64,000 nt of DNA from Anadara kagoshimensis (taxonomy: Eukaryota; Mollusca; Bivalvia; Arcoida; Arcidae): NCBI GenBank assembly GCA_021292105.1, contig CM037870.1, positions 9,459,558 to 9,523,557 of the forward strand, written 5' to 3'. Position 1 is the first letter of the stretch. Each line of letters starts with the position of its first letter. The notes beneath the pieces are model-generated. The model saw nothing but the letters and a program-made list of their open reading frames with translations. It ran no database searches and was not told where the DNA came from. Of the stretch, positions 361 through 61,101 are shown piece by piece. The position numbers were made by a program, and so were the translations under genes.

Positions 361-980
361 AATGGCGTTGTTCTCGTTGTTGCCATTTATTTATAAATAA
401 ATATTAAAGATCCGTTTCCATTAAAATCTCGTTTACTATTAACAGTTTAAGACACGCGGTGTTGTTCTCCCTGTTGTAATTTATTTTATTCACATTTCCA
501 CTCCCGACAGTATTTATTGCCATGTTTTTTATTTGCCAATCTAGCACCATGTTGGTTTGGGAGGGTTACATGCAGCTATAGGTGATGTATTTAAAAAACA
601 AAACTGTTCTTTAAGTAAATAACACTTGCTTGAGAAGTACATGTATACCCTCTATCTGGATGCAAGACAAAACGTTAAGCTATTGTTTAAGAATAATAAT
701 TCATAACATGTTTAAATATGCTTCTTACATTTTGCAAGCTATTTAACTTCTATAAAGCAATAATACAATGATAATTTTTTTCTACATTGGCGAAAAATAA
801 ATAGGGAAAAAACTTCAAATTACAAATGGAGCTTTTGGAGTTGAATACAATGATGGAGTTTTACGCCACAGTCAGGATTCGTTCACTTATATCGAGGTGG
901 TTAGTTCATGGATGCTGGGGGAAATCAGTGTTTCTGGAAAAAAACCCACCGTCGATGAGTGGCGTGTGATCACTTAAAAT
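361..980. other. Non-coding, no recognised gene
   Basis: AT-rich sequence without a convincing exon. Positions about 870-905 share a segment of roughly 30 bp with 23778-23812 on the opposite strand, which is the only structure noticed here. Confidence 0.6.
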
Positions 981-982
981 AG

Positions 983-1093
983 TTTGGTCCTTTGGGTTTC
1001 TTTTCAACATCTTGGGAAAAATTTTGTTTTACAATTTTGATCCAAGCACTACTGATGAGGAATTGTATTCCGAAACGACCGTCTAGTGCTGTA
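983..1093 (+). repeat. Short dispersed repeat ending in a hammerhead ribozyme, copy 1
   Basis: About 110 bp starting near GGTCCTTTGGGTTTC and ending just after the ribozyme. It matches 30977-31082 and 53132-53238 on the + strand and about 14962-15077 on the - strand. Similarity to the other loci stops within a few bases after the ribozyme, so the ribozyme sits at the 3' end of the shared unit. Hammerhead-bearing short repeats of this kind are known in animal Penelope-like and non-autonomous retroelements. Assignment to either is inference. Confidence 0.8.
1045..1090 (+). ncRNA. Hammerhead self-cleaving ribozyme, type I, copy 1
   Basis: All core elements are present in order. Stem I 5' strand AGCACTA (1045-1051) is exactly complementary to TAGTGCT (1084-1090), seven pairs. 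The core CTGATGA is at 1052-1058. Stem II is at 1059-1071, GGAAT pairing with ATTCC around a TGT loop. GAA is at 1072-1074. A very short stem III, AC/GT closing a GACC loop, is at 1075-1082. The predicted cleavage follows C1083 (a GUC site). Short stem III is typical of type I hammerheads in metazoan retroelements, some of which act as dimers. Activity is inferred from structure only. Confidence 0.88.
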
Positions 1094-1939
1094 GAATTAA
1101 AACTGGTATAATATGCAATTAAAACCTCTCGATAGTCGATACCCCAAGACTACAAATGTGAATATTTGAATGCAAACAGATAAAAGAACAAAATATTTAA
1201 ACAATATCACGAAGCTAGACGGAAAATAGCATTCGGCCTTTTTGGACTTTGCATTTAATTGGTTTGGAAACTTGGAAAGGCCTAAGTCTCATTATAAAAG
1301 CTTATTTCCAAAATTCTTCATTATCGGTGTAAGGGAAAATGTTTGCATACGTATATACATACCGTCAAATTAGGGCCACACATAACAAAGATGATCTGAA
1401 TGTTACAATCAAACAGATCTATCTGGTCGAAATAATCGCCAAAATTCTTGTCACCTTCAGTCATAAGAGATAACATAACTTCTCACACTATAAAAGTAAG
1501 AAAACAATGAATGTCGAAGTCTTAGCTTTGATGGTCCAAAACACTTCATAAGATAACGGTCTGTATACATTTGTTAGCAGTTACACCAACACGATCCGGC
1601 ATATCTTAGTTTGTGTTAGATTCCGAGCATTTTCCTGCAGTCGTAAGATGTTAAGGTTTTATATAAATATTCAGACCACCAAATCCATAAATGACATAAA
1701 GAGGATTCCTGGACTGAAGAAAGTTGTTTCATTCAAAAATATATTATCAGACCTAACTAAAGCATACTTAGTTGTATTAGAGGAGTAATGTCTACCAAAT
1801 TGAACTTCACAACTTCACTGTAGAGAAGTTTGTTTCCAAATTGTATTTTTTTGGAATTTCTATTAGAAGTTAAGTCATCATAGAACATTTGCTCGGCATG
1901 CTCCTGACATTTCATTATGAACCTGCTTAAAATCCTTAT
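1094..1939. other. Non-coding, nothing recognised
   Basis: AT-rich sequence with no open frame of note, no exon with both splice sites and protein similarity, and no repeat shared with the rest of the window that I could see. Confidence 0.5.
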
Positions 1940-13250: not shown

Positions 13251-14961
13251 AAGCAAATGCTACGTTGATGAATTATTAGGTTAACTTGTAAAAAGATTTT
13301 AAACAAACATAACAATAAAGGTAAAGGGGTTTGCATTTAATTAAGCAAGAATATTTTATTGACAAAAATAAATTGTTAACATGCTCTTAATTTGTTCATG
13401 TATGATTTACAATAAATCGACTTATAAGTCTGTTTTACTTTCTATATAAAAACAACAGTAAACTTGTATAAAACAGAGCAAAGAATCCGGGGAATGATGA
13501 ATTGGTTATTTTAAGTCAATTTGTCCTAGTGTTAAATGTGGCACATACCATCAAGTCTCCGCGCTATAAATCTGTCAAATAGGGGCTAGTTTTACCTGCT
13601 GACAGGTAGCATGAGTGATTACAAGTTTTACCCTCTGACAGTAAAGTTTATTTCTTATCTTACTTGGGTGTGAAAAAATCAATATCTGCCTATTGAAATA
13701 TAGTGATATGTATTACTCTTAACCAGAAATACAGGTGAAATTGATTGCTCTCACCTGTGGATAGAATTATAGCTTCTTCTGTTTTTAATCTTTTTATGAA
13801 ACATCAAACAGATGGCTAATTTTAATTCACAGCTAGAGTTCATTGAATTTTACACAATATTATATCTCTTTAGTATCCTAGTTGTTAGGTTATCAGTACT
13901 GTTACGTATGGCTTAAATCGCCATATTTGACCCTAACTTTTGAAATAGGCTTTGAAAACAGTTGTACGAGATCTTGAGATTTGATTCAATCACAAAAGCA
14001 AATATCGGTATGTGTTTTAACGCTTATCTAGTCCTTGGAGCTTATTGCATATATTTATTATGTCATCGTACTTTCTAAACGTACTTTCTAAAATAATTAT
14101 AAGTTAAGCAAATATTATGATCACTTGACATATCCTTCCGTGGCCATTCAAATACAGGATTTTATAATTAATGGTCCCAGTATTTGTTTGTCCTTATTTT
14201 CTTGCTTTGTTTAATGTTCCTATCATTTTTTTAATATTGTTTCGTATTCTTGCTGATATTAATTATTACTTGATTAATATTTTTCAGATAATTTTTTGTT
14301 CTTGAATTATAAATGTACTTGGCGATCTAGAAAATCATTACACAAATTACAAAAATTAAATATCAGAATGATCTACAATGTTTTAGTAACCAATAGATAG
14401 TTTCAGCCAAATCTACTGCACATATTATATAGAAACAAATTAATGAGGAACCGTAAAAAGAAATAGATTTGCAAATATTATTCGTGAAAGTTTTAATAAT
14501 TATTCTTTAGTTATTTTCTGTTGAATCATTGGAAGACTGTCTTTGCGTAGGTCAATTTCTCATATCAGATGCTATATATAAGGTCGTAGAAAAGTTGAAG
14601 TTTTGGCTTATGATTGATCGTACCCCAAATCCGAGGCTAAGCCTTAATTCTTTATATGTCTCAGAGTTCCTAAATAACTACACACCTTTAAGGGTTATCA
14701 AGACAAATATCTGTTGACAATGGGAATTACCAAGATCACACGTATTCGAAAAAGCTGAAAATACCCAGTAAATCCCCTGGTATCGAATCTGAAGAATTAA
14801 GGAAGTTTGTCATTGTGCATTTGACAGCAGAAATGTTGATGTTAATGCAACGACAAATATCATTAACGATATGACCGTTAGGTTTAAAATTCATTTATGG
14901 TTTGTACTTTACTTTTTGGCCTGTTCTTGTTAACTTGAAGTAACATTGATCAATTGATTAC

Positions 14962-15007
14962 AGCACTATACGGTCGTTTCGTAATACAATTCCTCATCAG
15001 TAGCGCT
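14962..15007 (-). ncRNA. Hammerhead self-cleaving ribozyme, type I, copy on - strand
   Basis: Read on the - strand: stem I 5' strand AGCGCTA (15007-15001), core CTGATGA (15000-14994), stem II GGAATTGTATTAC (14993-14981), GAA (14980-14978), stem III AC/GT with a GACC loop (14977-14970), cleavage residue A14969 and stem I 3' strand TAGTGCT (14968-14962). Compared with copy 1, one stem I pair is G-U in place of A-U, so pairing is kept. Stem II has one G/A mismatch. The cleavage triplet is GUA, allowed by the NUH rule. The upstream segment to about 15077 matches the dispersed repeat. Confidence 0.85.
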
Positions 15008-15867
15008 TGCACCACAATTGTGAAACCAAAATTTTTTTCAAAGGTTTGGAAATTTATCCAAAGGATCAAAGGATATTTAACAAGATTTAGCAAAGGAAAT
15101 TCTTTGCATGGGAGATTATACTTAGTTTTTGAGGAAAAAGACACAATAATAATTTTTACTCCGCTTTAAATCCAACTTTATTTTTTCGCTTTCATACTTT
15201 CCTCACTTAACATAATAAAAACAAACGTGTTTTGTCCTTTTCTAATCGTTATGTTTTTCCAAGGCGCGTTGACAGTTATGGGTTTTGGCTAGGCGTTTTG
15301 TTTTTTCAATGTGCGTTGGCAGCTATGTGTTTTGCCAAAAGCGTTTCGTTTCAATGCCAAAAAATAAACTTTAAAAATGCAATTGGAAGAAGACTTGTTT
15401 AAATTTTGTGATCACATTAATTTTCTCCCACGCACCTATGTATTTACATGTTCTAGTAATGACTATTTATTGTTGAACTGATGTCAAAAATTAATGATGC
15501 ACATGAACGAAAGTACAATTAAATTGTCATTAAGTAATTCTTCATAATAAACTATAAATCCAAACCAATCCATTGACGTTGTATACAATGTTGGGTAAGG
15601 TCTGTGATTATATCTCACAAGCATGTTGCTATTCGTCCCATCACACCTTTAAAATTTTAGGGCTATGACAAGTTATTTAGCCAACTGATAAATTAATAAG
15701 CTTATCCAATGATGTAATTTTTAATCATTTTATATGGTGACTTTCATTCAGTAATTTATAATTTCTACAGTGTATTTATTTCGAGGTCTTGTGGAATATT
15801 CTTTTGGTCTTATAGTTATTATCATTTTGCTATTGTGAATTTCTGTTATGAAGTTGATACCATATTT

Positions 15868-21206: not shown

Positions 21207-21351
21207 ATAATCAAAAACAAACATACTAATCCATGTCCGAATCACAATCCAGTAGCAAAGTAAAAACTTTGGAACTGACAAGTTAGGTTAGACACGTGAA
21301 CTTCCACCAGGGAAGTGAGGCCGGGTGCACCTCCTGTTTAGCTAGCTACAT
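21207..21351 (+). mobile_element. Foldback arm, left part, interrupted by the hAT insertion
   Basis: Starts at ATCAAAAACAAACATAC and runs through ATGTCCGAATCACAATCC, GACACGTGAACTTCCACC, AAGTGAGGCCGGGTGC and GTTTAGCTAGCTACAT. The arm is cut at 21351 and continues at 22561 with ACATCCGCAACGTGTGTAAT. Confidence 0.9.
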
Positions 21352-21901
21352 CATGGCCGTAACTACCATTGAGGCAAGTGAGGCAGTTGCCTCACCTAGA
21401 ATTCTGCAGATTTTTTTAACCGATTTAAGATTTTATGGGAAACAGACAATAACAATAAAAAAACTTGCCCATATAAATTATCGTTTCCTAGAGGAAATAA
21501 AACCGTTGTTTTATGGGTCGTATTTGATCCCATGTAACATTGACAAGATTACCCCAGAGATAGTTGTTAGTATAAGAGACATCTATGGTGCAGATTTGCC
21601 ATATTCCGACAACTTTCCTCAAGAGATTGATAGGTGGTTAACTAGATGCAGAAACGGCAATTTAGATGCAAAATCTTTGCTAGATACCATGCCATTAGCA
21701 GACAAGACATTGTATCCGAATATTCACATTATAGTCAAACTTTTACTCACTATCCCTGCATGTTCATGCTCATGTGAGAGATCATTCTCTGCCATGAGAC
21801 GACTGAAAGTGTGGAATAGATCAACAATGACTGGAACTCGGTTCTGTAGCCTGTCACTGTTACATATTCACCGTGATGATGCTATTGGATGTAGTTATTA
21901 G
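21352..21901 (+). pseudogene. hAT-family transposase fragment (C-terminal dimerisation domain)
   Basis: The open frame ends in a segment reading LLTIPACSCSCERSFSAMRR, then LKVWNRSTMTGTR and LSLLHIHRD. This is the hAT C-terminal dimerisation region, with its ERSFSAMRRLK core and LALLH-like helix, seen in ZMYM1-like/P52rIPK-like animal transposases. The upstream BED-type zinc finger and the DDE catalytic core are absent. The preceding ATG belongs to the foldback arm, so the apparent 201-residue start is accidental. The fragment alone could not transpose anything. Its retention in frame is most simply chance or recent origin. Confidence 0.85.
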
Positions 21902-22735: not shown

Positions 22736-22969
22736 ATCCGCCAACTAAGCTCCTATAGTTGTGCGTTTATATTGAAAACATTTGTCTGCCCCATTGAAGA
22801 ATTGTATCCGAGATATTGAACTGAAACTAGTCGTTGACCGTTGTACCATCTCCTGTTTTATTGAAGATGTTCATTTAGCGGTCTGAAAACACCAATATCA
22901 ATTCAATGTTCCTTGTAAGTTGTTACTTATTTTAATGTTTTTCCTGATATGTTTTTTATTATGTTCCAG

Positions 22970-23437
22970 GTTGTGAAACATCACGTTAATACCACTTGTA
23001 AATGTCATGGTGTGTCTGGATCGTGTACAGTGCGGACATGTTGGCTACAGTTGTCGCCAATTCAAAAAATAGGACAAGTTTTAAAACGAAAGTATGAAAA
23101 GGCGTCTGTTTTCACAGAGACAAACGAAGCCAATACTAAATATAACATACCAAAACGACGACGGAAACATTCTCGGCATCTTCGTGCTATAAAATCGTCA
23201 ATGGATTTAAAATATATTGACCCATCTCCCAGTTACTGCCTAAAGAGCAGGTACTCCGCGGGAACAGTGGGGAGACAATGTGATAAAAATACGACTTGTC
23301 AATCACTTTGTTGTGGGCGTGGTTATAATGTTCAAACCAGAATTGTAAGACGTCATTGTCAGTGTCAAGTGATATGGTGTTGTGAGTTTAAATGCAAAGT
23401 GTGCCCTTCAGAACAAGAAATATACACTTGTAAATGA
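22970..23437 (+). CDS. Wnt9: Wnt9, terminal exon
   Basis: The last exon of a secreted Wnt ligand, 155 residues to a TGA stop. It begins right after a TTATTATGTTCCAG acceptor with VVKHHVNTTCKCHGVSGSC; the ATG at 22949 is intronic and not the start. Residues 10-19 form the Wnt hairpin CKCHGVSGSC whose first serine is the palmitoleoylation site in studied Wnts. Asn7 is an N-glycosylation sequon. A lysine/arginine-rich linker (about residues 50-75) is followed by the cysteine-rich C-terminal domain, with SPSYC, CCGRGYN, CQCQVIWCC and a final YTCK. Length, cysteine pattern and the TVRTCW segment fit Wnt9. Phase 0 joins cleanly to the exon ending at 9785. In many lophotrochozoans Wnt9 lies beside Wnt1, Wnt6 and Wnt10, but none of those is in this window. 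Confidence 0.95.
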   Translation, partial: VVKHHVNTTCKCHGVSGSCTVRTCWLQLSPIQKIGQVLKRKYEKASVFTETNEANTKYNIPKRRRKHSRHLRAIKSSMDLKYIDPSPSYCLKSRYSAGTVGRQCDKNTTCQSLCCGRGYNVQTRIVRRHCQCQVIWCCEFKCKVCPSEQEIYTCK

Positions 23438-29290: not shown

Positions 29291-29865
29291 TGTACTTACA
29301 TTGTAAGATTTTACATGGTTAATCCAAGCAGCATTACCTATGTCTTACAGATTTGACCATTTTTTATGGGGCAAATTTTGTTTTGTGGTTGAAAACGTAT
29401 CACATAGAAATGATTCATTTAAACCTTACAAGAATGCTTTAAAGTTATTATAGACAAATGCGTCTGTTTTGAAAATATATGTATATATGCAAGTAAACGG
29501 GTTAGCCTGAAAATAAACATTTTTTGAAATTTTGATCTACGTTCGAAATGCTAGAAAAAAAAAAAGACGGGATCCAGAGGAACCTGAACTACAACACTTG
29601 ATATCATTTTATCAATATGGCTGGTTACTGTATTGATTTGTATTTTTCTATCACGTCCACTGTGTGTTGTGATGGGTATTAGGGGATTCAAACGCTTGGT
29701 ATTGCCAAAGCATGATGGAATCTAGATGAAACCAAACTAGACCAATTGAAAGCCGGCATTTGTCTAAATGTTCGTCCTTTACTTGTTTAATTGTGATGTG
29801 CTGTGGGTATTCGTGATATTGATAATTGGTTGTTATAAACACATTATTAATCACATCACAAACAT

Positions 29866-30245
29866 TGAAGAATGAGATGCCACATTCGTTCCTGGATACA
29901 AATATTATAGAACCAACCTAACCGGCATATAGACTGAGAGGCCACATTTGTTCTTGGATACAAATATTTTAGAACCAACCTAACCGTTATATAGACTGAG
30001 AGGCCACATTTGTTCTTGGATACAAATATTTTAGAACCAACCTAACCGTCATATAGACTGAGAGGCCACATTTGTTCTTGGATACAAATATTTTAGAACC
30101 AACCTAACCGTCATATAGACTAGACTGAGAGGCCACATTCGTTCCTAGATACAAATATTTTAGAACCAACCTAACCGTCATATAGAATGAGAGGCCACAT
30201 TCGTTCCTGGATACAAATATTTTAGAACTAACCTATCCGTCATAA
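29866..30245. repeat. 62-bp minisatellite (copy A)
   Basis: About six units of GAGAGGCCACATTTGTTC, TTGGATACAAATATTTTAG and AACCAACCTAACCGTCATA. One junction carries an extra TAGACTAGACT slip near 30120. The same array is at 52045-52400 in copy B. Confidence 0.95.
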
Positions 30246-30554
30246 TGAATTTGTAGTAAGACATTATAACTGATATCCGATAAAGCGTTCCTTTCATCTA
30301 GATGATGGTCTTATCTGCCATCTTGTCTGTAGCTAAACACGGCTCGTACTCAAGCCGAGATGGAACCTGATATAACGCCTTCCCACACAATATGTTTACT
30401 TGAATCATATCGAATTAGCGAATCAATTTCTATCTATTTATTTACATAATTCTTACCAAATTTATAACAATGTGGTATTAAAATTAAAAATGACATTCGA
30501 GAGACGCTTCGTCTATATTTACTTCATCTTTACATATCATACATATATATACAC

Positions 30555-30790
30555 AATAACATACTGGTCCGCGTCCAAATCACAATCCTTTAAACGACTA
30601 AAAAACCTAGAAAACTTGCAATTTATTTAACACGCAACACCAGGAAAATGAGACCGGATGCTTCGGAAAGGTAAACACTTCCTGTATAGCTAGCTACACT
30701 TAACAAATTGAGAATGACAGAAACATATGCCTATGGGACGTCACAAACGTCCAAGATAATCTTGGATACAGAGACTTTATCTAAAAAGCA
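30555..30790 (+). mobile_element. Foldback element, partial arm (copy A)
   Basis: Contains CATACTGGTCCGCGTCCAAA, AAAATGAGACCGGATGCTTC, GTATAGCTAGCTACAC, GGGACGTCACAAACGTCC and CTTGGATACAGAGAC. It is diverged but in the family order. Confidence 0.8.
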
Positions 30791-30976
30791 TGGCGATAAA
30801 TTTTGACATAACTTAAACCTACTTGAAAGAAGTTGAATAATTATTTCAAAATTTTATATTATTCTAAGAAATATACTATTGTCTAAATTTGCTGCTAGTT
30901 ATTTGAAATTCCTCAAAAACTGAGGTATTCTCCCTCATGCAAAGTATTTCCTTAGCTTAATTTGGCAACATATATT

Positions 30977-31082
30977 GGTCCTTTGAGTTTCTTTTCAACA
31001 TCTTGAATAAAGTTTTGGTTTCATAATTTTGGTCCAAGCACTACTGATGAGGAATTGTATTCCGAAACGGCCGTCTAGTGAA
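30977..31082 (+). repeat. Hammerhead-bearing dispersed repeat (copy A)
   Basis: Starts GGTCCTTTGAGTTTC and includes TTTTGGTTTCATAATTTTGG before the ribozyme. It is aligned with 983-1093 and 53132-53238. Confidence 0.82.
31039..31080 (+). ncRNA. Hammerhead self-cleaving ribozyme, type I (copy A)
   Basis: Stem I CACTA (31039-31043) pairs with TAGTG (31076-31080). The core CTGATGA is at 31044-31050, stem II GGAAT/ATTCC with a TGT loop at 31051-31063, and GAA at 31064-31066. Stem III ACGGCCGT is at 31067-31074, and the cleavage residue is C31075. Stem III is fully self-complementary, so it could be two pairs with a GGCC loop or could pair between two RNAs. The outer two stem I pairs present at 1045-1090 are lost here. 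Confidence 0.87.
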
Positions 31083-31159
31083 AGCAAAGTCGTAAAATTT
31101 TGAGAGCACACATTTTTTGTAATATAAAAAAAATCTTTTCGTCTGGAGCCTCGATCTTT

Positions 31160-31202
31160 GGACTTCATTGGGCGTCGAAATTGTCAACGCCTAATGAAGT
31201 CC
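31160..31202. repeat. Perfect-loop hairpin: 16-bp inverted repeat
   Basis: GGACTTCATTGGGCGT (31160-31175) and ACGCCTAATGAAGTCC (31187-31202) are complementary except for one G-T position, around an 11-base loop. A third, direct partial copy (AGACTTCATTATGCGTTGG) follows. The same structure is at 53317-53359 in copy B. Confidence 0.88.
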
Positions 31203-31834
31203 AGACTTCATTATGCGTTGGATTACGAGTTGGCAAATCGATGGTCAAACTGTTGAAATTCTTATAACTGTCACCACGTCATCAAGTGGCTTCAATACAA
31301 GGTATGTGGTATACACTTGTATCATCGTCTTTTGTTTAGATAAGTCCAATCCGTTTCTTGTCGTAAAGAACTATAAATTGCTTAATGGAAGTAATATTCC
31401 ATGCCACAGAACATCACAACTATCCTCATTATTTATATAGTTGTGTTGTGCATTTGTAATATAGTTTTTAGCGTTAGGCGTTTAAGCTAAACAGTAAATG
31501 ACATATATGCTTATATTTAATACAAGTTTGTCAGAGTTATCGCTCTTCCTTTGCAAGAAGTATATAGTAATGGTTTATACAAATATATCGAAGCACTCGG
31601 CATCACTTCCCTGGTGGCAGTTCAAGTGTTTAACTTAATTTGTCAGTTTACTGTAATTTAGATTAATGTGTTTGATTTTTAATTTATAATACCGAAGATT
31701 ACGAGATTTCTTGCAAATTTCGTTTTTTTAATTAAATGTAACTATCAATGACTAGCAACCAGTAGATGTACAGTACCAAATATTAAAGATATCATTTTTG
31801 TATTTCGCTTTTTTTCGTATTTTAACCAAAAGTA

Positions 31835-32970
31835 TACCCGTCCGTGTTCAAATCAAAATCAAAATAAAAACTACCAAATAAAGCACGTGAACTTCCATAG
31901 CTACCTCCTACCTCCTATCTAGTAAGCTACATCGTCTTAGTGTGAGTGAAGAATCAAGGAACTAGGGCTCGTCAAATATATCCAGGTACTTCTGGATAAA
32001 GAGACATCATACTTATCAACAATATTGTGATGAAGATCATGAAACTTTGTGAGGACCTTTATAAGCCTAGGCTTGCAATATCCCTGAGTCAACAATTTAA
32101 GTCGCTTGTTTCGTTACACTTGGTACAAGTGCTACTAAAATTCATTGACTAAAAGGCTCTGCATATAAATACTGTTCCGTGTATATAAAGAAATGAAGGT
32201 ACAGTTTGTGCCAATTGGCGTAATGGTTGTTTGTGGGAAATGGAAAATTAGATTGTCAAACACAACCAATATATTGTTGATCAAGAACTCAAAATTCTGT
32301 TGGTGGTATCGTGGTATCTTTTCTTTCAGTACGTCAAACTTGGCTTTAAAGGCCACCCAAGGGAACCAGTAAAAGTGGCTTTTATTGGCAGGTGGCCGTT
32401 AAATAGAGGTTTAAATATTATGTATTTAGACTTATACCTGAATTATGACGCACACGAAAGGCTACATTTGAACCTTTATGACAAACACGATGACTTAATT
32501 TTTCTATTGTCAACTTTTTTATGCAGCAATATACCTGCTTCTCCTGCTTATGGTGTATTTCTTTCCCAGTTAATACGCTATGGTAGAGCTTGTTACCACT
32601 ACGGGGACTTTGTACAACGAAGCAGGCTGCTTGCAAATAAATTGTTGACTCGGGGATATTGCAAGCCTAGGCTTATCAAGGCCCTCAAAATGTTTTATGG
32701 CCGTCATCACAGTATTGTTGATAAGTTTGATGTCTCTGTGTCTAGGATTGCCTTGGATATATTTGACGTCTCATAGTTCCATGTTCCTTTCACACAATTT
32801 TGATTACAAACGTGGCGGGTGTAGCTAGCTAAACAGGAGGTACTTACCCTTCCGGAGCACCCGGCCTCACTTCCCTGGTGGAAGTTCACGTGTCTTATCT
32901 AACTTGTTAGTTCCAAAGTTTGTACTTTGCTTCTGGATTGTGATTCAGAAATGGATTAGTATGTTTGTTT
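31835..32970. mobile_element. Foldback element with both arms (copy A)
   Basis: The left arm (31835-32130) has GTCCGTGTTCAAATCAAAAT, CACGTGAACTTCCATAGC, TCGTCAAATATATCCAGG and AAGCCTAGGCTTGCAATATC. The right arm on the opposite strand (about 32420-32970) has TATTGCAAGCCTAGGCTTAT, GACGTCTCATAGTTCC, CTAGCTAAACAGGAGGTAC, TTCCGGAGCACCCGGCC and GTATGTTTGTTTTTGAT. A MITE fragment interrupts the centre near 32335-32415. The 158-residue + strand open frame is repeat-derived. Length is about 1.1 kb. Confidence 0.85.
32335..32415 (-). mobile_element. MITE fragment inside the foldback element (copy A)
   Basis: GTCAAACTTGGCTTTAAAGG, CCACCCAAGGGAACCAGT and a GGTGGCCGTTAAATAGAGG segment match one end of the MITE at 27451-27633 in reverse orientation. 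Confidence 0.75.
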
Positions 32971-33469
32971 TTGATGTATAAAGAGCAATTGGAATACAAT
33001 TTTACCGGCCTTTATAAACAGACAGCCCTTATGCAGAGGAGTTTGACTGTATATTTTTTGCATTTCTTATCGGGTTGGGCAGCTGTATCTTACCGTATTA
33101 TGTAGAAAGATTCTTATATATTGCATCTTCATGGGAGGATAATAGAAATGACTTTAATGAAAAAATAACTAAGATAGCATAATGATGTTATATAGCGCAA
33201 TATATTTCGGATACAGTATTCCTTACATTTCAATTAAACTGATAAAATACATGCACAATATACTAATTACATTGAATAAAGTTACACAGGAAAGAGATGT
33301 AACAGAAATAACTAGAGATAGATGTAGTCAAAATACATGGAAGTGACAATTTTTATTGTCGTATATGGTCATTCGTGTTTAAGAAAAAGCTCATAATATA
33401 TTCTTCTTAATATTGTGTTTTTATCTTAAATTAGAATTCGTTTCACTTGAAGACATAAGAAACGCAACT

Positions 33470-34300
33470 ATCTCCATAACAAATCAACTGTTTATACAAA
33501 AAACCTGCTACAGAAACCATTTCTATAAAATGAATCACCTGTCTATACAGGTAAACCTAAAATAACGACCACCTCTATGTAAATACCACCTTTCTAATGA
33601 TTAAGATCATGTCTTTATAAAATATAATCTACTATAGCAACCACCTCTTTATATAGGCCATTGTCTATATAGTAAAATCTACTATAGCAACCACCTCTTT
33701 ATAAAGGATATTGTCTATATAGTAAAATCTGCTATAGCAACCATCTCTTTTGAACGGTCATCTGTCTATATAGTAAATCCTGCTAAAGCAACCACCTCTA
33801 GTTATACGTGCCACCTTCTGTATATTGAAGCTTGCTACAGCAAGCACCCTTATCTCTAAAGTCCACCTGCTTATAAAGTAAAGCCTGATAAAGCAGCCGC
33901 CCTAATTTATAAAGACCATCTGTCTATAAAGTGAAATCTGCTATACCAGGTATATATAAACCACTTATTTATAGAGTAAAACCTGCTTTACCAACCACCC
34001 TATTTGAATAGTGTTTACAATATACTCTACGAAAGCAACCAACCCCAAATCAAGAATATGTGCTTATACATTGAAACCTGCGAAAGCGACCACCTGTATA
34101 TAAAGACCATGTGTCTAAAAAATAAACTTACAATAGTGGAAATCTTTATATAAAGACCATGCGTCTAGAAAGTACCTGTATATAAATACCGAGTGTATAT
34201 ACAGTAAAAGTGGTATAAGCAAACATCTTGATATAAAAACCACCATTTAGTACAGTACCATCTGCTATAGCGACCACCTATCAGACTGGTTGTTAGAGCC
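33470..34300. repeat. 50-bp minisatellite and degenerate flanks (copy A)
   Basis: The core has about three units (near 33610-33775) of AAGGATATTGTCTATATAG, TAAAATCTACTATA and GCAACCACCTCTTTATA. On both sides the same CTATAnAG/ACCACCT motif degenerates over several hundred bp. It lies just beyond the stop codon of the STELLO-like gene, within or next to its 3' UTR. The motif resembles the body of the MITEs near 27.5 kb. Confidence 0.9.
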
Positions 34301-34488
34301 TTTGTATATGCATATGTGAACTAAATATGTTCTTTATATTAAAACCACCAGACATCCAGTGCATTGAATTAATAGTTTTAAGATGCAATGGGTGGTCTTA
34401 ATAAATAGTAATTACCGCATAGTGCTTTGCTGAAACTAAAATATTCTGCACTGTTTTATGTATTGAAATAAACGTAAGTTTATACTAA

Positions 34489-36420
34489 TTATTCGAACAA
34501 ATTTGGTTTTACGATTTTTTCACATAAAAAGGTCCGATTCATTCTCGACATCTTTATCGGATGTACGAAATCTTTCTTTTCTGCAAGTCTTTTCAAAAAA
34601 AGAGCTCTTTCTCCGCCCCATAAGTACGTGGCATTGAAGAATACGATGTTTTCCTTTTTTGTTAAACCGAGAGATATAGTTGGGAATGCCATTTCTAAGA
34701 AAAACTTATGACGTGAAAATATATCCATATAAAATATAAATTCTTCTGAATATTGTGCTGGTAAGTACATGGCATCGCTAGGTCCAAAATAAATTCCCGT
34801 GTCGTACCCAGTATTTGTTCTCAAAGTCTCTTTGAATCGGGTGTACGCTTTAATACTTGTGTTACGTAATTCCTTTAACCCATTCTTATACGCAGTCAAT
34901 CCAAATGGCGATCCGTACCATCTCCATGTAGTTGTAAAGTTCTTGCCTCCCTTGAGTACATGTATCTCAAAAAGCTGAATTTTATCAAATTTGTAACGTA
35001 TAAGGCGTTTTGAATAGAGAAGTGAATCGTCCATTACGTAGAAGTAGCCATCAACACCGTAGTTCATCTGCATTGCCTGTAACATACACCTCTGAGGAAA
35101 ATAACTTACATTTGTTTCTATTTCAATAAATGACACCGGTTCTAACAAATCCTTCGTCTTGTTTTCAAACACAGTTTTGTTGTTACCACAATATACAATA
35201 TTAGGGAAATGTGGCCTATAAAGAGCCTCCAGGATTTTAACATTGGAGTAATGAGGAGAACTAAACGAAATAATCAACAGAATATTGTCATACTTCTTCA
35301 TATTCGAGAGATATGAGATATTTTTTTTGAGAATCTAAAATTTGGACATATGTGTAATATTCGATTTATAGATTTTTCTGGGATATAAGTTCTTTTTTGG
35401 CTTAATGATACAACGTTAAGTGCTTCTTCCTCTGGTATAAAGATCACGCTGGTGTTCCACTTTTTTGCTGTCTGACCTTTGATTTTTCTGCCAGCATTCC
35501 ATGTCATATTTTTCAGATGTATTCGTTTTGGTTCGGTATAGCTGATTGATTTCAAATCCTCTATCCACCGTGTAATTAACTTGCCATCGCTTCTTTTTAA
35601 ATAATATTTTGAATCATTTTAATGACAAATCCGATACACACTCAAAAAAGGAATATTTGTTTTCGCAGTCCACTCATTTAAAAACTTCGAAAGATTTTCT
35701 GTTTTGAAATATAAGTCCATTTCTTGTAAAGTAATCTTTGTAATAAGAGTGTGGGTTTCTTTTTGAGAACGCGTTTGGAGGATAAAATGCGATATTACCT
35801 CCTATTTCCCACAGCAATCTTTGTGACCAATATGATCGCCAAATATCAGCCACACAAAACTTACAGTAGTTGGTAAAATCAAGCCCCAGAATGCATCATA
35901 TAAATAAAGGGTATTTTGTGCATTGGATGGCGAATACGAATAACTTCTTCATCAAAACAGGAGGGACCTAACACTGAAGGTGACATTGAAGGAATTCGTC
36001 GTCGTTTTTCAGTAAGTCTAAATTTTGCATCTACATCCGGGTCACCATTAGACGACTTTGCTGAATAAGTGGTGTCCTCCATTTTCCCAAGTGTATATGA
36101 ATGTGAAAAGTTTTCTCCTATTTGACTGAGAGGATATCCCACGAGGCCACATACTTCCTTGCCCAAAATGTCTATACGGATTGAAGGTATTGCTCTCCCC
36201 CGTATACATCAATCCTGTAGTTTCTTCAGTGTAAGTAAACCGTTTAAGGTTATCTAGTGGCCTGTTGTCATCCGCATCGTATATTACTTTTGCGCCATTT
36301 GCAATTGCATACAAATATCCAACATTTTTTCGCGAATAACTTTTCACGGGTAAAAAGGTGTAATTTGAAAACCCTAGTCTTTCTTGCTGTTCTATGCTCA
36401 AAAACTCGCAGTTGGGAAAC
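34489..36420 (-). pseudogene. DUF288/STELLO-like putative glycosyltransferase, main exon, copy A (frame-disrupted)
   Basis: This is the counterpart of the open exon at 57410-59345. The C-terminal 270 codons (34489-35301) are intact. From about 35321 to 36375 the frame is broken by about a dozen one-base insertions or deletions relative to copy B, for example a T-run at 35321-35328, and changes near 35605, 35621, 35667, 35728, 35855, 35947, 35963, 36009, 36087 and 36137. Recognisable pieces survive in several frames, including YSRKNVGYLYAIANGAK, NPYRHFGQGSMWPRG and DPDVDAKFRLT. Substitutions are few, and indels are nearly absent in the adjoining 830 bp, so local consensus error is as likely as true pseudogenisation. 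The splice acceptor at its 5' end (CTACATTCAG on the - strand) and the intron to 37595 are kept, so it is not a retrocopy. Confidence 0.85.
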
Positions 36421-36489
36421 CTGAATGTAGAAAAGATACGATAACAATATCACTATATTTGTATTATCGTTTTAGATACCCTTTTTTCC

Positions 36490-36615
36490 CCTGATAAGCC
36501 TAGACTTGCAGTATCTCTGGGTCAACAATTTATTTGTAACCAGCTAACTTTGTTGTATAAAGCTCCTGTAGTTGGAACAAGCTCTAGCGTAGCGCATTAT
36601 TTTGGAAAAAACATA
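36490..36615 (+). mobile_element. Foldback inner segment (copy A), in the STELLO-like intron
   Basis: AAGCCTAGACTTGCAGTATC, CAACAATTTATTTG, TTGTTGTATAAAGCTCC and TGGAACAAGCTCTAGCGTAG match the inner half of the family's + arm. The rest of the element follows at 36955-37475 in reverse orientation. Confidence 0.8.
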
Positions 36616-36954
36616 AGTTGAGTTTTTTACAGTCAGATAAATCACGAGTTGGTATTGAATAGGACACAAAACACTCTTCGAGGGCAATAGCTACTCTTGA
36701 TATTTCCGAACTAAAAAATTCCGAATCCCAAGTAGTAATATTACATTTGAACATCGTTTATTTCAATCACCATTCTCTTGTTTAGGCTTATATCCGCCAA
36801 TTTAAGAATTCATCAATTTCTAATTATTGTCAGAGATTGTGATAAAATACCGCCTCAAGTTACAATATTCTGAAAGTGTTTCAATTGTTTATTTTTTATA
36901 CAACCAAGTATTGAAAAGGTAACTTTATTAATTTTCTTAGTGTTGTTTAATTCT

Positions 36955-37475
36955 CAAATTTGAAACTTTATGACAAATGTGATGACTTCATTTTTCTATT
37001 GTCAACTTTCCTTTTCTATACAGCAATATACCTGCTTCTCCTGCTTATGGTGTATTTTTTCCCAATTAATACGCTATGGTAGAGCTTGTTCCCACTACAG
37101 GTACTTTGTACAACGAAGCAGGCTGCTTGCAAATAAATTGTTAAAACTCAGGGATATTGCAAACCTTGGCTTATCGAGGCCTTCAAAATGTTTTATGGCC
37201 GTCATCACAGTTGATAAGTTTGATGTCTCTTTGTCCAGGATTGCCTTGGATATATTTGACGTCCCAAAGTTCCATGTTCCTTTCACAATTTTGATTACAC
37301 ACGTGACGGGTGTAGCTAGCTAAACAGGAGGTGCTTACCCTTCCGAAGCACCCGGCCTCACTTTCCTGGTGGAAGTTCACGTGTCTAACCTAACTTGTTA
37401 GTTTCAAAGTTTTTACTTTGCTTCTGGATTGTGATTCAGACTTGGATTAGTATGTTTGTTTTTGATACTTATTCT
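36955..37475 (-). mobile_element. Foldback element, long arm (copy A)
   Basis: Runs from TTTATGACAAATGTGATGAC and GCAATATACCTGCTTCTCC through GCTATGGTAGAGCTTG, GACGTCCCAAAGTTCC, TTACACACGTGACGGGTGTA and TTCCGAAGCACCCGGCC, to GTATGTTTGTTTTTGAT. Several open frames on both strands are shadows of it. It lies in the intron between the two STELLO-like exons. Confidence 0.88.
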
Positions 37476-37594
37476 GCAGAACATAATAATTATTCTGTAA
37501 ACTTTCAATGTCTCGTAAGTAGAACGAATCTCTGTTTTCTGTTCATCCTAGAGCTAGTAAGTGTGATGATAATCAGCCTATATCATTTACTTAC

Positions 37595-37744
37595 GCCCAG
37601 TTATTTGGTGTTTTTGCATCACCAACAATTACTACCCTCCATCCCGGTATCTGTGCCAAATATTTGATGTCCTCTGTGGGAGGGGCTATAGTGGTGACCA
37701 CAATCCACTTATCAGCTTTCTGTGTTGTGGGTATCTTCAGATAT
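37595..37744 (-). CDS. DUF288/STELLO-like gene, upstream exon, copy A
   Basis: An exon of 150 bp on the - strand, found by reading for domain content. It opens after a TTTTATTTTATACAG acceptor and encodes YLKIPTTQKADKWIVVTTIA, then PPTEDIKYLAQIPGWRVVIV and GDAKTPNNW. It ends with two bases of an alanine codon before GTAAGT. The WIVVTT, PTEDIK, GWRVVIVGD and TPNNW blocks are the N-terminal signature of the DUF288 family. Its phase fits the main exon starting at 36420, giving NNWAFPNCEF across the junction. It differs from copy B by one residue (GDA versus GDT). The exon with the start codon and any membrane anchor was not found. Confidence 0.85.
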
Positions 37745-37849
37745 CTGTATAAAATAAAACAGAACGTTTGAATTAAATTTTTATGTAATATTATTATATC
37801 CGGTTATCATATTTAGTATACACTACATTTAACAAGATATATGTCGGTT

Positions 37850-38890
37850 TATGTCCAAATAACAATACCAAACATAGAACTTCTACAAAGAAGTGAGACC
37901 GGGTGAACCGAAAGGTACACATGCCATTTCTAATCAGCTCCATTCACCATATAAACATGGAACAACAGATATATCCGGGTCAAGTACATAAGTAGATACA
38001 TAGACATCATAGTGATAAGCCTAGGCTTCTATATCACCTAGACAACAATTTATTTATAAGCAGCCTGATGAGTTGTACGTATGAACCCCCCTATAGTGGG
38101 AACAAGATTAACGATAGCGTATTTATTATGAACCGAATACACCATAAGTAATTATACATTATGTTGATGTCGTGCGTTTTAGCAAACTTGAAATAAAGAT
38201 ACCATTGATTCTTCTGCTTAATATTTGGATTTGTACCTCAATTATGACGACAGTCTACATTTTAAGCTATATGGCAAACGTGATGAATGTTTCTATAGTC
38301 AACTTTTCTTTTCTATGCATCAATACAACTGCTTCTCCTGCTTATGGTGTTTTACAATGAGTGGGCTATTTTTCACTACACTAGATCTTGTTCCCACAAT
38401 AGAAACTTTATGCAACGAAGGAAGTTTACAAGAAAGCAAGAAATGCAGAAATATAGTCTAGTAAGACAGGATCCCGAGGACTTGGAATTAAATGTTAAAA
38501 TCTTCTTTGTTTATGACTTTAATTATTTAATCAAAAATGGTGAAGTTGAATGTTGAATAAAAAAGAAATTAAACAAAAGAATTGTAGGGACATTGGAAGC
38601 CTTACTTATCAAGTTTTATGGCCGTCACCTCATTATTGTTGATAAGTATAATGGCTCTGCTTCCAAGCTAATACTTGATATATTTGACGCCCAATAGTTC
38701 CATGCTCTTTTTATTCCCAATTAGATTTTAAACATGACAATTGTAGCGAGTTAGACAGGATGTGCTTATTCTTCCGGAACACCCGGTCTCACATTCCAGT
38801 TTGATGTTTACGTGTTGAAATTGACATTCCAGTTACCATCATTGCTAATGTGCTTTTGAAGTTTTGATGTGATTTTAACATGGAATTGGC
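37850..38890. mobile_element. Foldback element with both arms (copy A)
   Basis: The left arm has GGTTTATGTCCAAATAACAA, AGTGAGACCGGGTGAACC and ATATCCGGGTCAAG. The centre has AAGCCTAGGCTTCTATATC. The right arm, in reverse, has TTTATGGCCGTCACCTCATT, GACGCCCAATAGTTCC, TTCCGGAACACCCGGTC and a GATTTTAACATGGAATTGG end. Diverged, about 1 kb. It includes a single copy (37991-38016) of the 26-bp unit that is amplified in copy B. Confidence 0.82.
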
Positions 38891-39329
38891 ATATTAAATT
38901 ATATGTGTGAATATGTACAAGTTATAGCATGACAATTGGGCCAATCTATGATTTACTGACCAAAAACACGAACTTTCTCTTCGGTCGATATTCTTGTTTT
39001 TGATTACAGGTCGAACTTATCAACATGTTTTAATTTTTTAATAAAACCGAAGAAAACGCGGCGCTTTTGAATACACTACAATATAGTTTGATAGAAACGA
39101 GAAAGAATTATAGGGTAATGTGTCTTTTAGTTTTTTTTAGGTGTTTGAAAAAGGTATTCTAATTAGATCGTCTATATTGCCCGCAAAGCAATTTTGAAGA
39201 GGGAGTCATGTATGTTGGAGTCTCAAAAAATTGTTGTAAAATTTCGTTTGATGACAGATAAAATCGAATTTGGATGATTCTTTGTCAAACATTCTGATCA
39301 CTTTTATGAAAACTGTAGAATAATTGACG

Positions 39330-41178: not shown

Positions 41179-42584
41179 TTAATTTCTGTTCGAAGTTAAT
41201 TTTGGTATTTTATCTATATCTACATTAAATATAATACCAAGTAATGAAAAACAAGTATTGCCCCAGTGTAAGTCATAGTCTATACATAGTTTCTCTTCAC
41301 TGTATTTTTTATTTCCTATCCAAATAATTTGAGTTTTGTCAAAATTTATTTTAAGACTCGAAATGTTTGCAAAAACATCAAGTTCGCATAAAGCTTGTCG
41401 TAACGAAAGTTCAGATCCGTCCAATATAAGACAAGTATCATCTGCAAATAGAGATATTTTAGATTCAGTAAGATTTGTTCTAATTCCTTTTTTTTTCACA
41501 TTATTTCGAATTTTTATTGCTAAAATCTCAACACATAGTAAAAAGATATATGGTGACAAAGGGTCCCCTTGTCTACAGCCTCTTTTAATTTGAAAGAAGT
41601 TTGTTAAATTTCCTCCTTGCGTAACTGCAGCTTTAATATCTTTATAGAAACTAGAAATCCATTTTCTTATAGAAATTCCAAAATTAAAAAAGTTAATACT
41701 TTGTCTAAAAAGGACCAAGAGATGGAATCGAAAGCCTTTTCGAAGTCTACTAATAATAATAACCCAGGAATATCATTGTATTCAGTATATTGCATTATAT
41801 CGTATATTAGTCTAGTATTTTCTCCAATATATCTCCCTGGAATGAAACCAGTTTGTTCTTTACCCATTATATTATTTAAAGACGGTTTAATTCTGTTCGC
41901 TATAACCCCTGAGCCTATTTTATATACCGTATTAAGAAGAGTAATTGGGCGCCAATTTTTCAATAAGTGTTTAGGTTTTCCTTCTTTTGGTATACATGTT
42001 ATTATTCCCTCCCTTTGTGTTACTGAAAGTTGTCCATTTTTATACCCATAATTTAAAGATCGAATAATAAAGGGCCCAATGTCGTTCCAAAATACTTTAA
42101 AAAATTCAACAGTAAAATCATCAGAGCCAGGACTTTTATCATTTTTCATATTCTTTAATGTATATAAAGCTTCTTTTTCAGTAATAACACCTTCTAAACG
42201 ATCAGATTCGCTTTTGGTTAATTTTGAATACTCACAATTGTTGAGATAGTCGTTTAAATCTACCTCTAAAATATTACGGTTTTCAGAGTACAGATTACTA
42301 TAAAAACTTCCAATTTCTTTCAAAATTTCTTTTTGATCAGTTATGATATCTCCGTTATTTTTTTCTATTCTAGGTATAATTTTATTCAAATAATTTTTTT
42401 TTCCAAGTTGCAGAAAAATTTTGTTGGTTTTATTGCCCTCTGTTACCCATTTAACTCGCGATCTAACAATAGAACTTTTGATTTTTTCTTTTCTGACATT
42501 CTCTAATTGTACCCGTTTACCCTCTAATATACCAACATTTTGATCATTTAAATTTTCTTCCAAGTACTTTATGCCATCCAACAA
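41179..42584 (-). pseudogene. LINE reverse transcriptase domain
   Basis: Two overlapping frames, 41667-42584 and 41179-41718, offset by one base in a T-run near 41690. Motifs seen in order: NDKSPGSDDFTVEFFK, NWRPITLLNTVYKIGS, QTGFIPGRYIGENTRL, VDFEKAFDSISW (motif A), RGCRQGDPLSPYIF (motif B) and FADDTCLILDG (motif C, FADD where most elements have YADD). The catalytic aspartates are kept. The frame is shared with the endonuclease only after a one-base shift near 42575. Confidence 0.92.
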
Positions 42585-43282
42585 TTTTGTCTCTTGATTT
42601 TCTTTTTGTTTTTTTTTACATAACTCGCGTATGAAATAGTTTTACCCCTGATTTCCACCAATAAAGTTTCTAAAAATAATTGATCATTAATATTGAATTG
42701 AACGGAGTCAAGTGGTATTTTATCAATATTATCTAAATCATAGACTGGGATTGCATATTGTAATTTGGTTTTACTTATTAATTCTTTTATTGTTTTAATG
42801 TATTGTAAGTCATATAATAAAGAACTGTTAAATTTCCATAATCTTCTTCCCCTAATAAATTCGTTCAACGTCATTTGTAATTGGACTAATGAATGATCTG
42901 AACGATAACCTGGTTTTATAAAAGCTTGAAATGTATCTGTCGATAAAGTTTCACTTAATATGAAGAAATCTAATCTTGCTTGTTTTAGAGGATTCTTTCT
43001 TCTCCAAGTATATCTTTTCAAATTTGGATTAAGCTCTTTAAATGCATCTATGCAATCATTTTCCTGCATAAAATCTAATAATTTGTTTCTGGCATTTGGG
43101 TTATTTGTACGAATGTAATTGAATGAGTCTAAATCAGGGTCCAAGCAAAGATTAAAGTCACCACAGATAATAAAATTATTTCCAAATTCACCAATTATTT
43201 CAAAGATATTGTTATAGAAAATCGGGTCATCTTTATTAGGGCCATATAGGTTTACAAGAGTTATTTTTCCGTATGTAAACAT
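42569..43282 (-). pseudogene. LINE apurinic-type endonuclease, C-terminal half
   Basis: Reads KITLVNLYGPN, then FIICGDFNLCLDP, then RYTWRRKNPLKQARLDFF and GYRSDHSLVQL. GDFN and SDH are conserved catalytic motifs of the exonuclease-endonuclease-phosphatase fold used by LINEs to nick target DNA. The N-terminal catalytic residues are missing because the element is truncated just upstream. The ATG at the start is internal. The frame runs into the RT frame with a one-base offset. Confidence 0.88.
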
Positions 43283-43350
43283 CTTACCTGTGAATAATCT
43301 GGTATCATTAACATTTTTATAGTAAACATGTTTGTACTTAATCAGCTTTA

Positions 43351-44820
43351 GGTATTATTCAGGAATTTAAGGTGCCAAACCATCAGTAAAATATGAATAA
43401 TAACGATATGTATACTTCTGTAATAATTGACGCATCGCTGACCACGTCGACAATGTTCCGCCAAGGCCCGACATGCTTGGATTAGACGCAAAAACAATGA
43501 AAACTCTTGAGATTGTGATTTGAACATTGAGGTTCATCAAAAATATTGGCAAAATTTGTGAAACAAAAGGGATAACTAATCAGACAAAGAAAAATATGTA
43601 CAGAACAGAGCCAGATGGAGAGATTTCATCAACGTCTTAAACTCTAGACTGAGTGAGAGGCCAAAATAAAATAAATGAACGTCCAGGTATACTGATATAG
43701 ATTGGTGATTCTTTAACATCCGCAGTGGAACATAATAACAATTTAATAACATTAATTAAATTAAAAAGCGTGAATTTGTTTAGAAAAACAGAATAGCGAT
43801 ATGAAAACAGACTTAATACAAATTGTTTTTGGACATTCTGTGTTATTAATTTGTACAATTTAGGATTAGTAGAATAATTGAAGGTTTTTCAATTTGACTT
43901 AAACTTTACCATCTGTTATGGGCGTAAATTTTTTTTCAACAAAAACACCTTTCAAGATAAAAAAGATCTATCGATGACTATAGTAGATATTTAAAAATAA
44001 AACAAACAAATAATCCAGTCCATGAAACAATTGTGATATTTTCAGGAAGGTTTACTGTTTTACATTTGAGAGTGATTTTGTCAGTTTTGTTCTCCAATTT
44101 GCTTTCTGATCAATATAATCTAGATAACCAATAAAATCTGTTTAAATCTTTATTAACTAATATGTGATTTCGATTTGAAGATGGACATGTATGAACGTGT
44201 TTTATTATACGATGTATATACTTTCAAGTTGAGTTTGGGCATGACATATCCCTCTACATCAATATTGCTGATGAGGTACTCACCTTTCATTCCAGTTGAA
44301 CGATAAAATGTTTTTTATCTTGGATGTATATTTTATTGTTGATGGCATCATTCCCGATAATTCGAGCTGTGTTTCAAATATAAAAATGAAGAATGAAAAC
44401 GTTGCAGCTAACACAAAACATCTGAAAAACAATTTCTGTATATAACGTTTCATTTTTCGTAACTAGTTGCTTAAACAAGAAGTGGCGCCTAGCGAAAACA
44501 GTGTTTTCTGTCAACTATCCTGCAGCAGGTTTGACACTCCTGTACAGTTTATAACCAATACTTGACACGTTTCATTATGAACAGATTTTGTCGGGTGACT
44601 AAATTATAAACATATCATGTCAAAATTGGAAGACATTTTGTCGATCTAACATTTTCCCTAAGGGCCGTCTGAAAATCTGCGCTCGTATGATTTGCAAAAA
44701 AAAGAAATAATAAAAAAATAAAAATCAAAAACACAGATTAAAAATTACAAAAAGTTTATAATTTATTACATTCCATGAGGATTTAACAGAGCAGGTAAAT
44801 TTTGCAAACAAGGCTGATCA
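43351..44820. other. Non-coding, nothing recognised
   Basis: AT-rich sequence upstream (on the LINE strand) of the LINE. Short open frames at 43367-43552 and 43637-43858 on the - strand have no recognisable domain. CTGATGA at about 44269 was examined as a possible ribozyme and rejected. Confidence 0.5.
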
Positions 44821-49968: not shown

Positions 49969-50094
49969 TCAAAAACAAACATACTAATCCATTTCCGAAT
50001 CACAATCCAGAAGCAAAGTAAAAACTTTGGAACCGACAAGTTAGGTTAGACACGTGAACTTCCACCAGGGAAGTGAGGCCGGGTGCTCCAACAT
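49969..50094 (+). mobile_element. Foldback terminus nested in the 1.8-kb element
   Basis: From ATCAAAAACAAACATAC through TTTCCGAATCACAATCC, GACACGTGAACTTCCACC to GTGAGGCCGGGTGCTCC, about 125 bp of one arm and nothing of the other. It is very close to the arm at 21207-21330, suggesting recent arrival or exchange. Confidence 0.9.
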
Positions 50095-50109
50095 TACAAT
50101 ATTGAAGGA

Positions 50110-50965
50110 ATTGATTTAACGATCATTTTGATATATAGATAATGGTCATGGGTTCAAAGGTCAAGGTCACAGATGCAAATGAATACTATATTGGCTAATT
50201 ATCTCGAAAACTATTAACTTTTTGTATAGACATGTATATTAGAATACGGTAGGTTTTGATTTAACGATCATTTTGATATATAGATTAATGTCATGGGTTC
50301 AAAGGTCAATGTCACAGATGCAAAAGAATACCGAAATGATTAATTATCTTAAAAACTGTAAACTTTTTGTATAGACATATATATTAGAATATTGTAGGTT
50401 TTGATTTAACGATCATTTTGATATATAGATTAATGTCATGGGTTCAAAGGTCAAGGTCACAGATGCGAAAGAATACTGAAATGGTTAATTATCTCGAAAA
50501 CTATTAACTTTTTGTATAGACATGTATATTAGAATATTGTAGGAAATGATTTAACGATCATTTTGATATGTAGATTAATGTCATGGGTTCAAAGGTCAAG
50601 GTCGCAGATGCAAAAGAATACCGCAATAGTTAATTATCTCAAAAATTATAAACTTTTTGTATAAACATGTTTATTAAAATATTGTAGGTTTTGATTTAAC
50701 GATAATTCTCATATATAGATTAATGTCATGGGTTCAAAGGTCAATGTCACAGATGCGAAAGAATACTGAAATGGTTAATTATGTAAAAAACTATAAGCGT
50801 TTTGTATAGACATGTATATTACAATATTGTAGAAATTAATTTAACGATAATTTTATATATAGATTAAGGTTATGGGTTCAAAGGTCAAGGAATATTAACT
50901 TTTTGTATAGGCATGTATATTCAAATATTGTAGGTAATGGCCTAACAATCATTTTGATATATAGA
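50110..50965. repeat. 145-bp tandem repeats inside the inserted element
   Basis: Units start with GATTTAACGATCATTTTG at 50113, 50258, 50403, 50548 and 50693, with a shorter diverged one after. Each has GTCATGGGTTCAAAGGTCAA and a CTTTTTGTATAGACATGTAT segment. Some carry AGGTCAAGGTCA intact, others AGGTCAATGTCA. Confidence 0.95.
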
Positions 50966-51247
50966 AGAAGGTCATAGTTTCATACTTTAGTTTTTAATTT
51001 TTTAGCTGTTTATAAATAATGTGTTGTAGCTAGACTATATATTATATATATTAATATATTATACATTTATTATATGTAGCAATCTCGGGACAAGGTCTGA
51101 TTAATTTGCAAAAATTCTTGCATTTATTTTTGCCTTACTGCTGAAAATTAGGAGTTCTCTTTAATAAATGTTATTGACCATTGAACCTCTGCATGAGATA
51201 TGTTCTTAGCCTCAGGTGAGCGTTAAGGCCCATGGGCCTCTTGTTTT

Positions 51248-51465: not shown

Positions 51466-52044
51466 ACATTGTAAGATTTTACATGGTTAATCCAAGCAGC
51501 ATTACCTATGTCTTACAGATTTGACAATTTTTCATGGAACAAACTTTGTTTTGTGGTTGAAAACTTATCACATAGAAATGATTCATTTAAACCTTACAAG
51601 AATGCTTTAAAGTTATAATAGACAAATGCGTCTGTTTTGAAAATATATGCATATATGCAAGTAAACGGGTTAGCCTGAAAATAAACATTTTTTGAAATTT
51701 TGATCTACGTTCGAAATGCTAGAAAAAAAATAAAAATGACGGGATCCAGAGGAACCTGAACTACAACACTTGATATCATTTTATCAATATGGCTGGTTAC
51801 TGTATTGATTTGTATTTTTCTATCATGTCCACTTGTGTGTTGTGATGGGTATTAGGGGATTCAAACGCTTGGTATTGCCAAAGCATGATGGAATCTAGAT
51901 GAAACCAAACTAGACCAATGGAAAGCCGGCATTTGTCTAAATGTTCGTTCTTTACTTGTTTAATTGTGATGTGCTGTGGGTATTCGTGATATTGATAATT
52001 GGCTGTTATAAACACATTATTAATCACATCACAAACATTGAAGA

Positions 52045-52400
52045 ATGAGATGCCACATTCGTTCCTGGATACAAATATTTTAGAACCAACCTAACCGTCA
52101 TATAGATTGAGAGGCCACATTTGTTCTTGGATACAAATATTTTAGAACCAACCTAACCGTTATATAGACTGAGAGGCCACATTTGTTCTTGGATACAAAT
52201 ATTCTAAAACCAACCTAACCGTCATATAGACTGAGAGGCCACATTCGTTCCTGGATACAAATATTTTAGAACCAACCTAACCGTCATATAGACTGAGAGG
52301 CCACATTTGTTCTTGGATACAAATATTCTAAAACCAACCTAACCGTCATATAGACTGAGAGGCCACATTCGTTCCTGGATACTAACCTAACCGTCATAAT
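52045..52400. repeat. 62-bp minisatellite (copy B)
   Basis: About six units matching 29866-30245. Two units share an ATTCTAAAACC variant not seen in A, which points to local homogenisation. The last unit is shortened. Confidence 0.95.
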
Positions 52401-53238: not shown

Positions 53239-53316
53239 AGCAAAGTCGTAAAATTTTGAGAACACACATTTTTTGTAATATAAAAAAGACTCTTTTCGTC
53301 TGGAGCCTCGATCTTT

Positions 53317-61100: not shown

Positions 61101-61101
61101 A

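Follow-up and report, generated by a model that had tools for sequence, protein, structure and literature searches.

A hammerhead-bearing, retrozyme-like repeat of Anadara kagoshimensis with a common 3′ end beyond the predicted cleavage site

Known retrozymes and related elements

Metazoan non-LTR retrozymes, as described in the available part of PMC7229834, carry a type I hammerhead ribozyme in tandem repeats of 150-450 bp, arranged as dimers to multimers. They are non-coding and low in GC, have target-site duplications of more than 4 bp when such duplications are present, and are expressed as both linear and circular RNA. For the retrozymes of Mytilus galloprovincialis, the same part of that paper gives units of ~350-390 nt and ~5,000 copies. 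Penelope-like elements (PLEs) encode a reverse transcriptase (RT), and canonical members also a GIY-YIG endonuclease, according to the accessible parts of PMC11167929 and PMC7761336. For a lizard PLE, PMC11167929 describes two neighbouring start sites of reverse transcription, both downstream of its hammerhead, and a preference for AT-rich targets. Repeats from Nematostella are described in the available part of PMC4918200 as having LINE-like target-site duplications of 15 bp.

The DNA analysed here, a 64,000-nt stretch of the Anadara kagoshimensis genome (the window), carries at 976-1120 on the forward strand an element, copy 1, that fits the metazoan non-LTR retrozymes as far as the available part of PMC7229834 describes them; the assignment is made by features of the unit and not by sequence kinship. 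Like the M. galloprovincialis retrozymes of that account, it belongs to a repeat with a type I hammerhead with a short stem III, a unit of a few hundred nucleotides (339 nt), thousands of ribozyme cores (5,916), a low GC content and no long frame. Elements of this kind are already known, and the pattern of inserted ends of the present one is the addition made here. No description of a common 3′ end about 38 nt beyond the cut, together with 5′ truncation, was found in the accessible text of PMC7229834, PMC7761336, PMC11167929 and PMC4918200. The pattern bears on how animal retrozymes move.

The ribozyme and the retrozyme copies of the window

The sequence at 1045-1090 on the forward strand reads AGCACTA-CTGATGA-GGAAT(TGT)ATTCC-GAA-ACGACCGT-C/TAGTGCT, where the slash marks the cleavage predicted at a GUC site, after position 1083. 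Inspection revealed the conserved core, the type I order of stems and the GUH site of the type I hammerhead class. Stem I forms 7 of 7 pairs, stem II has 5 pairs closed by TGT, and stem III is short. A complete type I hammerhead, as the earlier note had proposed for this position, is thus borne out by the 7 stem I and 5 stem II pairs around a cut after 1083. A scan of both strands for the motif gave three matches in the 64-kb window, and 60 windows simulated with a first-order Markov model gave none.

Scoring with the Rfam model Hammerhead_1 (RF00163) gave 26.1 bits for the copy 1 site and 22.3 bits each for the sites at 31,038 (copy 2) and 53,194 (copy 3), against a gathering cut-off of 34. 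At E ≤ 1, no hammerhead was found at the fourth site of the window (copy 4), and none was reported in a scan of the entire 64 kb. An Rfam family search of the A. kagoshimensis genome returned no match, but as control genomes gave none either, this result carries no information. A 161-base slice with one array unit scored 28.1 bits, again below 34, and nine sampled loci searched at E ≤ 1 yielded no hammerhead, even though one of them is the locus of this slice; the hammerhead is therefore lost in the larger scan. Because 26.1 bits lie under the cut-off, threshold-based Rfam scans miss the copy 1 hammerhead, and such thresholds can miss families with thousands of copies. A weak stem III is a likely reason for the low score. 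The earlier note had named a sub-threshold covariance score at all four sites as a refutation, and taken literally this criterion would make its claim fail; in our judgement the structure of the repeat and its counts in the genome, described below, outweigh this.

Positions within the element are given on one real unit as a ruler, with phase 1 at TAAACCCC, the cut after phase 301 and the final base at 339. Copy 1 (976-1120, forward strand) is 5′-truncated and runs from about phase 194 to 339. Its 3′ end is taken as about 1120, with TATAATATGCAATT at 1107-1120, and the blastn match extends to 1129. The tail that leads from the ribozyme cut to the common 3′ end of the element occupies 1084-1120 on the forward strand and is 37 nt long here, against 38 nt in the reference unit. 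Copy 2 (30,850-31,080, forward strand) covers phase 69-306 and ends 5 nt beyond the cut, with an intact core. Copy 3 (53,005-53,236, forward strand) is its duplicate in a segmental duplication, at an offset of ~22.15 kb; in both, stem I has 5 consecutive pairs, compared with 7 in copy 1. Copy 4 (14,958-15,136, reverse strand; phase 134-312) is degenerate, with a mismatched stem II and GTA at the cut.

The arms of the segmental duplication lie at about 29,745-38,953 and 51,918-62,754 of the window, with an offset near 22.15 kb that becomes 22.9-23.8 kb further right. Copies 2 and 3, near 31 kb and 53 kb, are halves of this one duplication and hence represent a single insertion event, so that the three independent loci counted in the earlier note become two independent loci with an intact core, to which a degenerate copy on the minus strand is added. 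Its placement of the hammerhead at the 3′ end of the repeat is right for copies 2, 3 and 4, which stop early, and wrong for the full unit, which extends 38 nt beyond the cut, an end that copy 1 attains at about 1120. The duplication arms also carry a STELLO-like glycosyltransferase region (one copy was tested against Pfam). Elsewhere in the window, a Wnt exon lies at 22,919-23,437 and the end of a hAT transposase at 21,287-21,901, and tandem arrays are present at 60,946-61,973 (26-bp units), 55,630-56,785 (50 bp), 50,093-50,972 (145 bp) and 1-371 (53 bp).

Genome-wide units and the ends of inserted copies

Exact hammerhead cores with a short stem III occur 5,916 times in the A. kagoshimensis genome (1.115 Gb, 36 contigs), and the reversed core pattern, used as a control, has no match in the same 1.115 Gb. 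Cut segments that follow one another at a distance of 323-353 nt form 883 tandem pairs genome-wide, again with none for the reversed pattern. An array of five 339-nt units with 98% matches was read at 310.3-312.0 kb of contig C1, and a run of near-constant period with 12 consecutive pairs lies at 9.335-9.339 Mb of contig C3. The unit is 339 nt long and 66% AT, carries one type I hammerhead and occurs singly or in tandem, and its longest open stretches are 54 aa in sense and 83 aa in antisense. Of the features that mark metazoan non-LTR retrozymes, tandem hammerhead units (here of 339 nt), lack of coding capacity and low GC were found. The cut segment followed by the tail TATAATATG is present at 6,023 places in the genome, the same continuing through NAATT at 3,773, and the same running on into AACCCC of a following unit at 895; matching was exact, so every longer pattern drops some copies through point changes alone. 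With 5,916 cores, 883 tandem pairs and 5′-truncated copies, the element appears to be a mobile, RNA-based and non-autonomous retroelement, as had been suggested from the window.

Outside animals, the family-specific pattern gave no match in bacterial and archaeal genomes. The general core pattern matched 66 stretches of the bacterial and archaeal collection and one site in viral contigs, where a version closer to the present family gave none. None of these 67 bacterial, archaeal and viral cores has at least 4 pairs in both stems.

Copy ends were surveyed in 62 segments of contig C1 and in the window. This census reached up to 12.43 Mb of C1 and took in 72 of the 100 listed core places, with 5,948 of its 338,688 bases being N. 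It comprised 92 insertions, of which 2 lay at the edge of a segment and 7 were duplicates by their flanks; their exclusion left 83 unique insertions. The 3′ ends of 59 of these 83 fall in one 12-nt bin from phase 333, about 38 nt beyond the cut. The 5′ ends are scattered, the best 12-nt bin holding 8 of 83; the best bin under a uniform null (300 draws) held a mean of 8.0 and a maximum of 12. Most census insertions were picked by their ribozyme core, a choice that forces 3′ ends beyond phase 301 but not to 339; an exact core is lacking in 20 unique insertions, and 9 of these have the same common 3′ end. The combination of a common 3′ end and scattered 5′ ends is characteristic of target-primed or similar retroposition. 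Judged from the sequences of the copies, copying of this retrozyme probably begins at a fixed point, as it does in the retroposition of LINEs or Penelope-like elements.

The earlier note had inferred that the ends of the element are set by self-cleavage. Linear hammerhead-cut monomers would then be the integrated form, and copies would begin and end at the cut. Some support for this idea comes from a minor class of copies whose 3′ ends lie at phase 303-314, 2-13 nt beyond the cut; it comprises 9 of the 90 non-edge insertions, including window copies 2-4. The main cluster of 59 of 83 3′ ends lies about 38 nt beyond the cut, and around the cut itself the 83 unique insertions include one 3′ end at phase 298-304 and one 5′ start at phase 299-305, so 5′ ends have no excess there. 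With cleaved RNA as the template, the 5′ ends would also be expected to form a pile-up at the cut. Exact genome counts were 3,797 for starts 2 nt inside the cut, 3,492 at the cut and 3,215 for 2 nt beyond, corresponding to a loss of 8.0% in the 2-nt step inside and of 7.9% in the step across (SE about 0.45% each), where the comparison is with one control step, just inside the cut. Since these genome-wide losses are equal, no such pile-up is present. We therefore consider definition of the inserted ends by self-cleavage very improbable.

By length and phase, 67 of the 83 unique insertions span one cut site and 13 span two or more. Near-constant-period arrays such as the 12 consecutive pairs on C3 would suit a satellite-like tandem repeat that spreads by DNA recombination alone and contains an incidental ribozyme-like motif. 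This is scarcely credible, given the predominance of insertions across a single cut site, the dispersal of the sampled 5′-truncated copies with a common 3′ end, and the absence of two stems with at least 4 pairs from all 67 bacterial, archaeal and viral cores.

Template, enzyme and a proposed route of copying

The equal losses inside and across the cut, together with the 13 of 83 insertions that span several cut sites, suggest that reverse transcription probably used an RNA whose cut site was intact and which was, at least sometimes, longer than one unit or endless. The template was probably circular and closed, or else an uncut multimer, and the end data fit both equally.

The explanation that we favour, and regard as likely from the genomic copies, is that copy 1 is a 5′-truncated animal non-LTR retrozyme whose ribozyme makes circles, the inserted ends being set by a borrowed RT. 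Array transcripts would self-cleave into monomers, and a host ligase would join these into circles. An RT borrowed from an autonomous element would always start at the same internal position, immediately 5′ of the TAAACCCC seam, and copy through the re-sealed or never-cut ribozyme site, for a partial turn or for several turns. Integration of the cDNA would follow, with nicked target DNA as the probable primer. The ribozyme would thus serve for circle production and not for definition of the inserted DNA ends. Several features count against this explanation, among them the minor class of 3′ ends soon after the cut, the weak target-site duplications, the near absence of covariation and a circular fold no better than that of shuffles. 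A gap in copy length also stays unexplained by it: among the 62 copies with the common 3′ end, 49 are shorter than 315-371 nt and 13 longer, with none within this range.

An uncleaved linear array transcript with a defined 3′ end, copied by a LINE in the manner of a SINE, would produce the same genomic signature of a common 3′ end and 5′ truncation, with a ribozyme irrelevant to mobility. Ribozyme mutants of one lizard Penelope-like element still insert in vitro (PMC11167929), in line with such a route. We consider it unlikely, as the 64 copies listed have no poly(A) or simple tail in common after their 3′ end, and retrozymes from three animal phyla make circles according to the available part of PMC7229834. 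The ribozyme stems also appear better conserved than the adjoining sequence. In 75 sampled cores, majority agreement was 0.945-0.965 for those letters of stems I and II that the search pattern had left free and 0.889-0.895 for the adjoining stretches, a difference that is suggestive only, because the core was the criterion by which the copies had been picked. Of these 75 cores, 52 form all 7 stem I pairs, with no compensatory pair in stem I, and stem II covariation consists of one two-sided pair in one core. Other retrozymes are reported to be highly self-paired, whereas the circular fold of one present unit was no better than those of 100 dinucleotide shuffles (z 0.07).

SINEs, which are moved by LINEs, have no long open frame and form dispersed, 5′-truncated copies with a common 3′ end. 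The present retrozyme resembles them in all of these features and differs in its seamless tandem units, its ribozyme, the lack of a common tail and its weak target-site duplications. Duplications of at least 7 nt were found at 8 of 61 insertions against 2.9 expected, which is a weak signal, and the single long repeat (32 nt) sits in repetitive sequence. In this respect the element is also unlike the Nematostella repeats, with their 15-bp duplications (PMC4918200, available part).

With PLEs that have minimal hammerheads, as covered by the accessible parts of PMC11167929 and PMC7761336, the element shares a type I hammerhead, tandem copies, a fixed RT start downstream of the cut (putative here) and the possible use of uncleaved RNA as template. 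The flanks of the insertions are slightly AT-rich (0.71 vs 0.67 overall), a further likeness. Unlike PLEs, the 339-nt unit encodes neither RT nor GIY-YIG, the longest open stretch being 83 aa, and its putative RT start lies about 38 nt beyond the cut, compared with about 85-92 nt in the lizard PLE (calculated from PMC11167929). The two are compared by their features and not by sequence. A tentative extension of the favoured explanation would treat animal retrozymes as SINEs of PLEs, in which the PLE enzyme starts at a fixed internal site, a short way past the hammerhead of a re-ligated RNA circle, and rolls round it. If true, the ribozyme would make the template and the borrowed enzyme would set the ends.

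A PLE as the source of the copying enzyme seems possible rather than probable. Among 150 scored candidates out of 248 in the genome, at least 50 matched GIY-YIG, some of them within open frames several hundred aa long, which is compatible with the presence of PLEs but not proof thereof. Frames of a LINE-type endonuclease and RT lie at 41,667-43,354 of the window. A sharp 3′ end whose distance to the cut is known, and a template that appears intact across the cut, make it testable which enzyme starts there.

A very abundant RT-like element (families D4, D5, D10 and D12) is also present at 29,035-63,355 of the window, with a common 3′ end of its own near GGATTAGTATGTTTGTTTTTGAT. In the 62 segments and the window, 185 copies of the 3′ part of D4/D5/D12 were counted, of which 96 end in the last 20 nt. 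The searched protein pieces of this element gave no Pfam match, and it is therefore not named a PLE. Template switching between it (D4/D5/D12) and the retrozyme was considered and rejected, as its distances to retrozyme 5′ ends are scattered and few are adjacent, for which chance seems enough. Among the sampled loci, one (L065, 861-970, reverse strand) contains a hairpin that is weakly mir-9-like, scoring 39.1 bits against a cut-off of 58.6.
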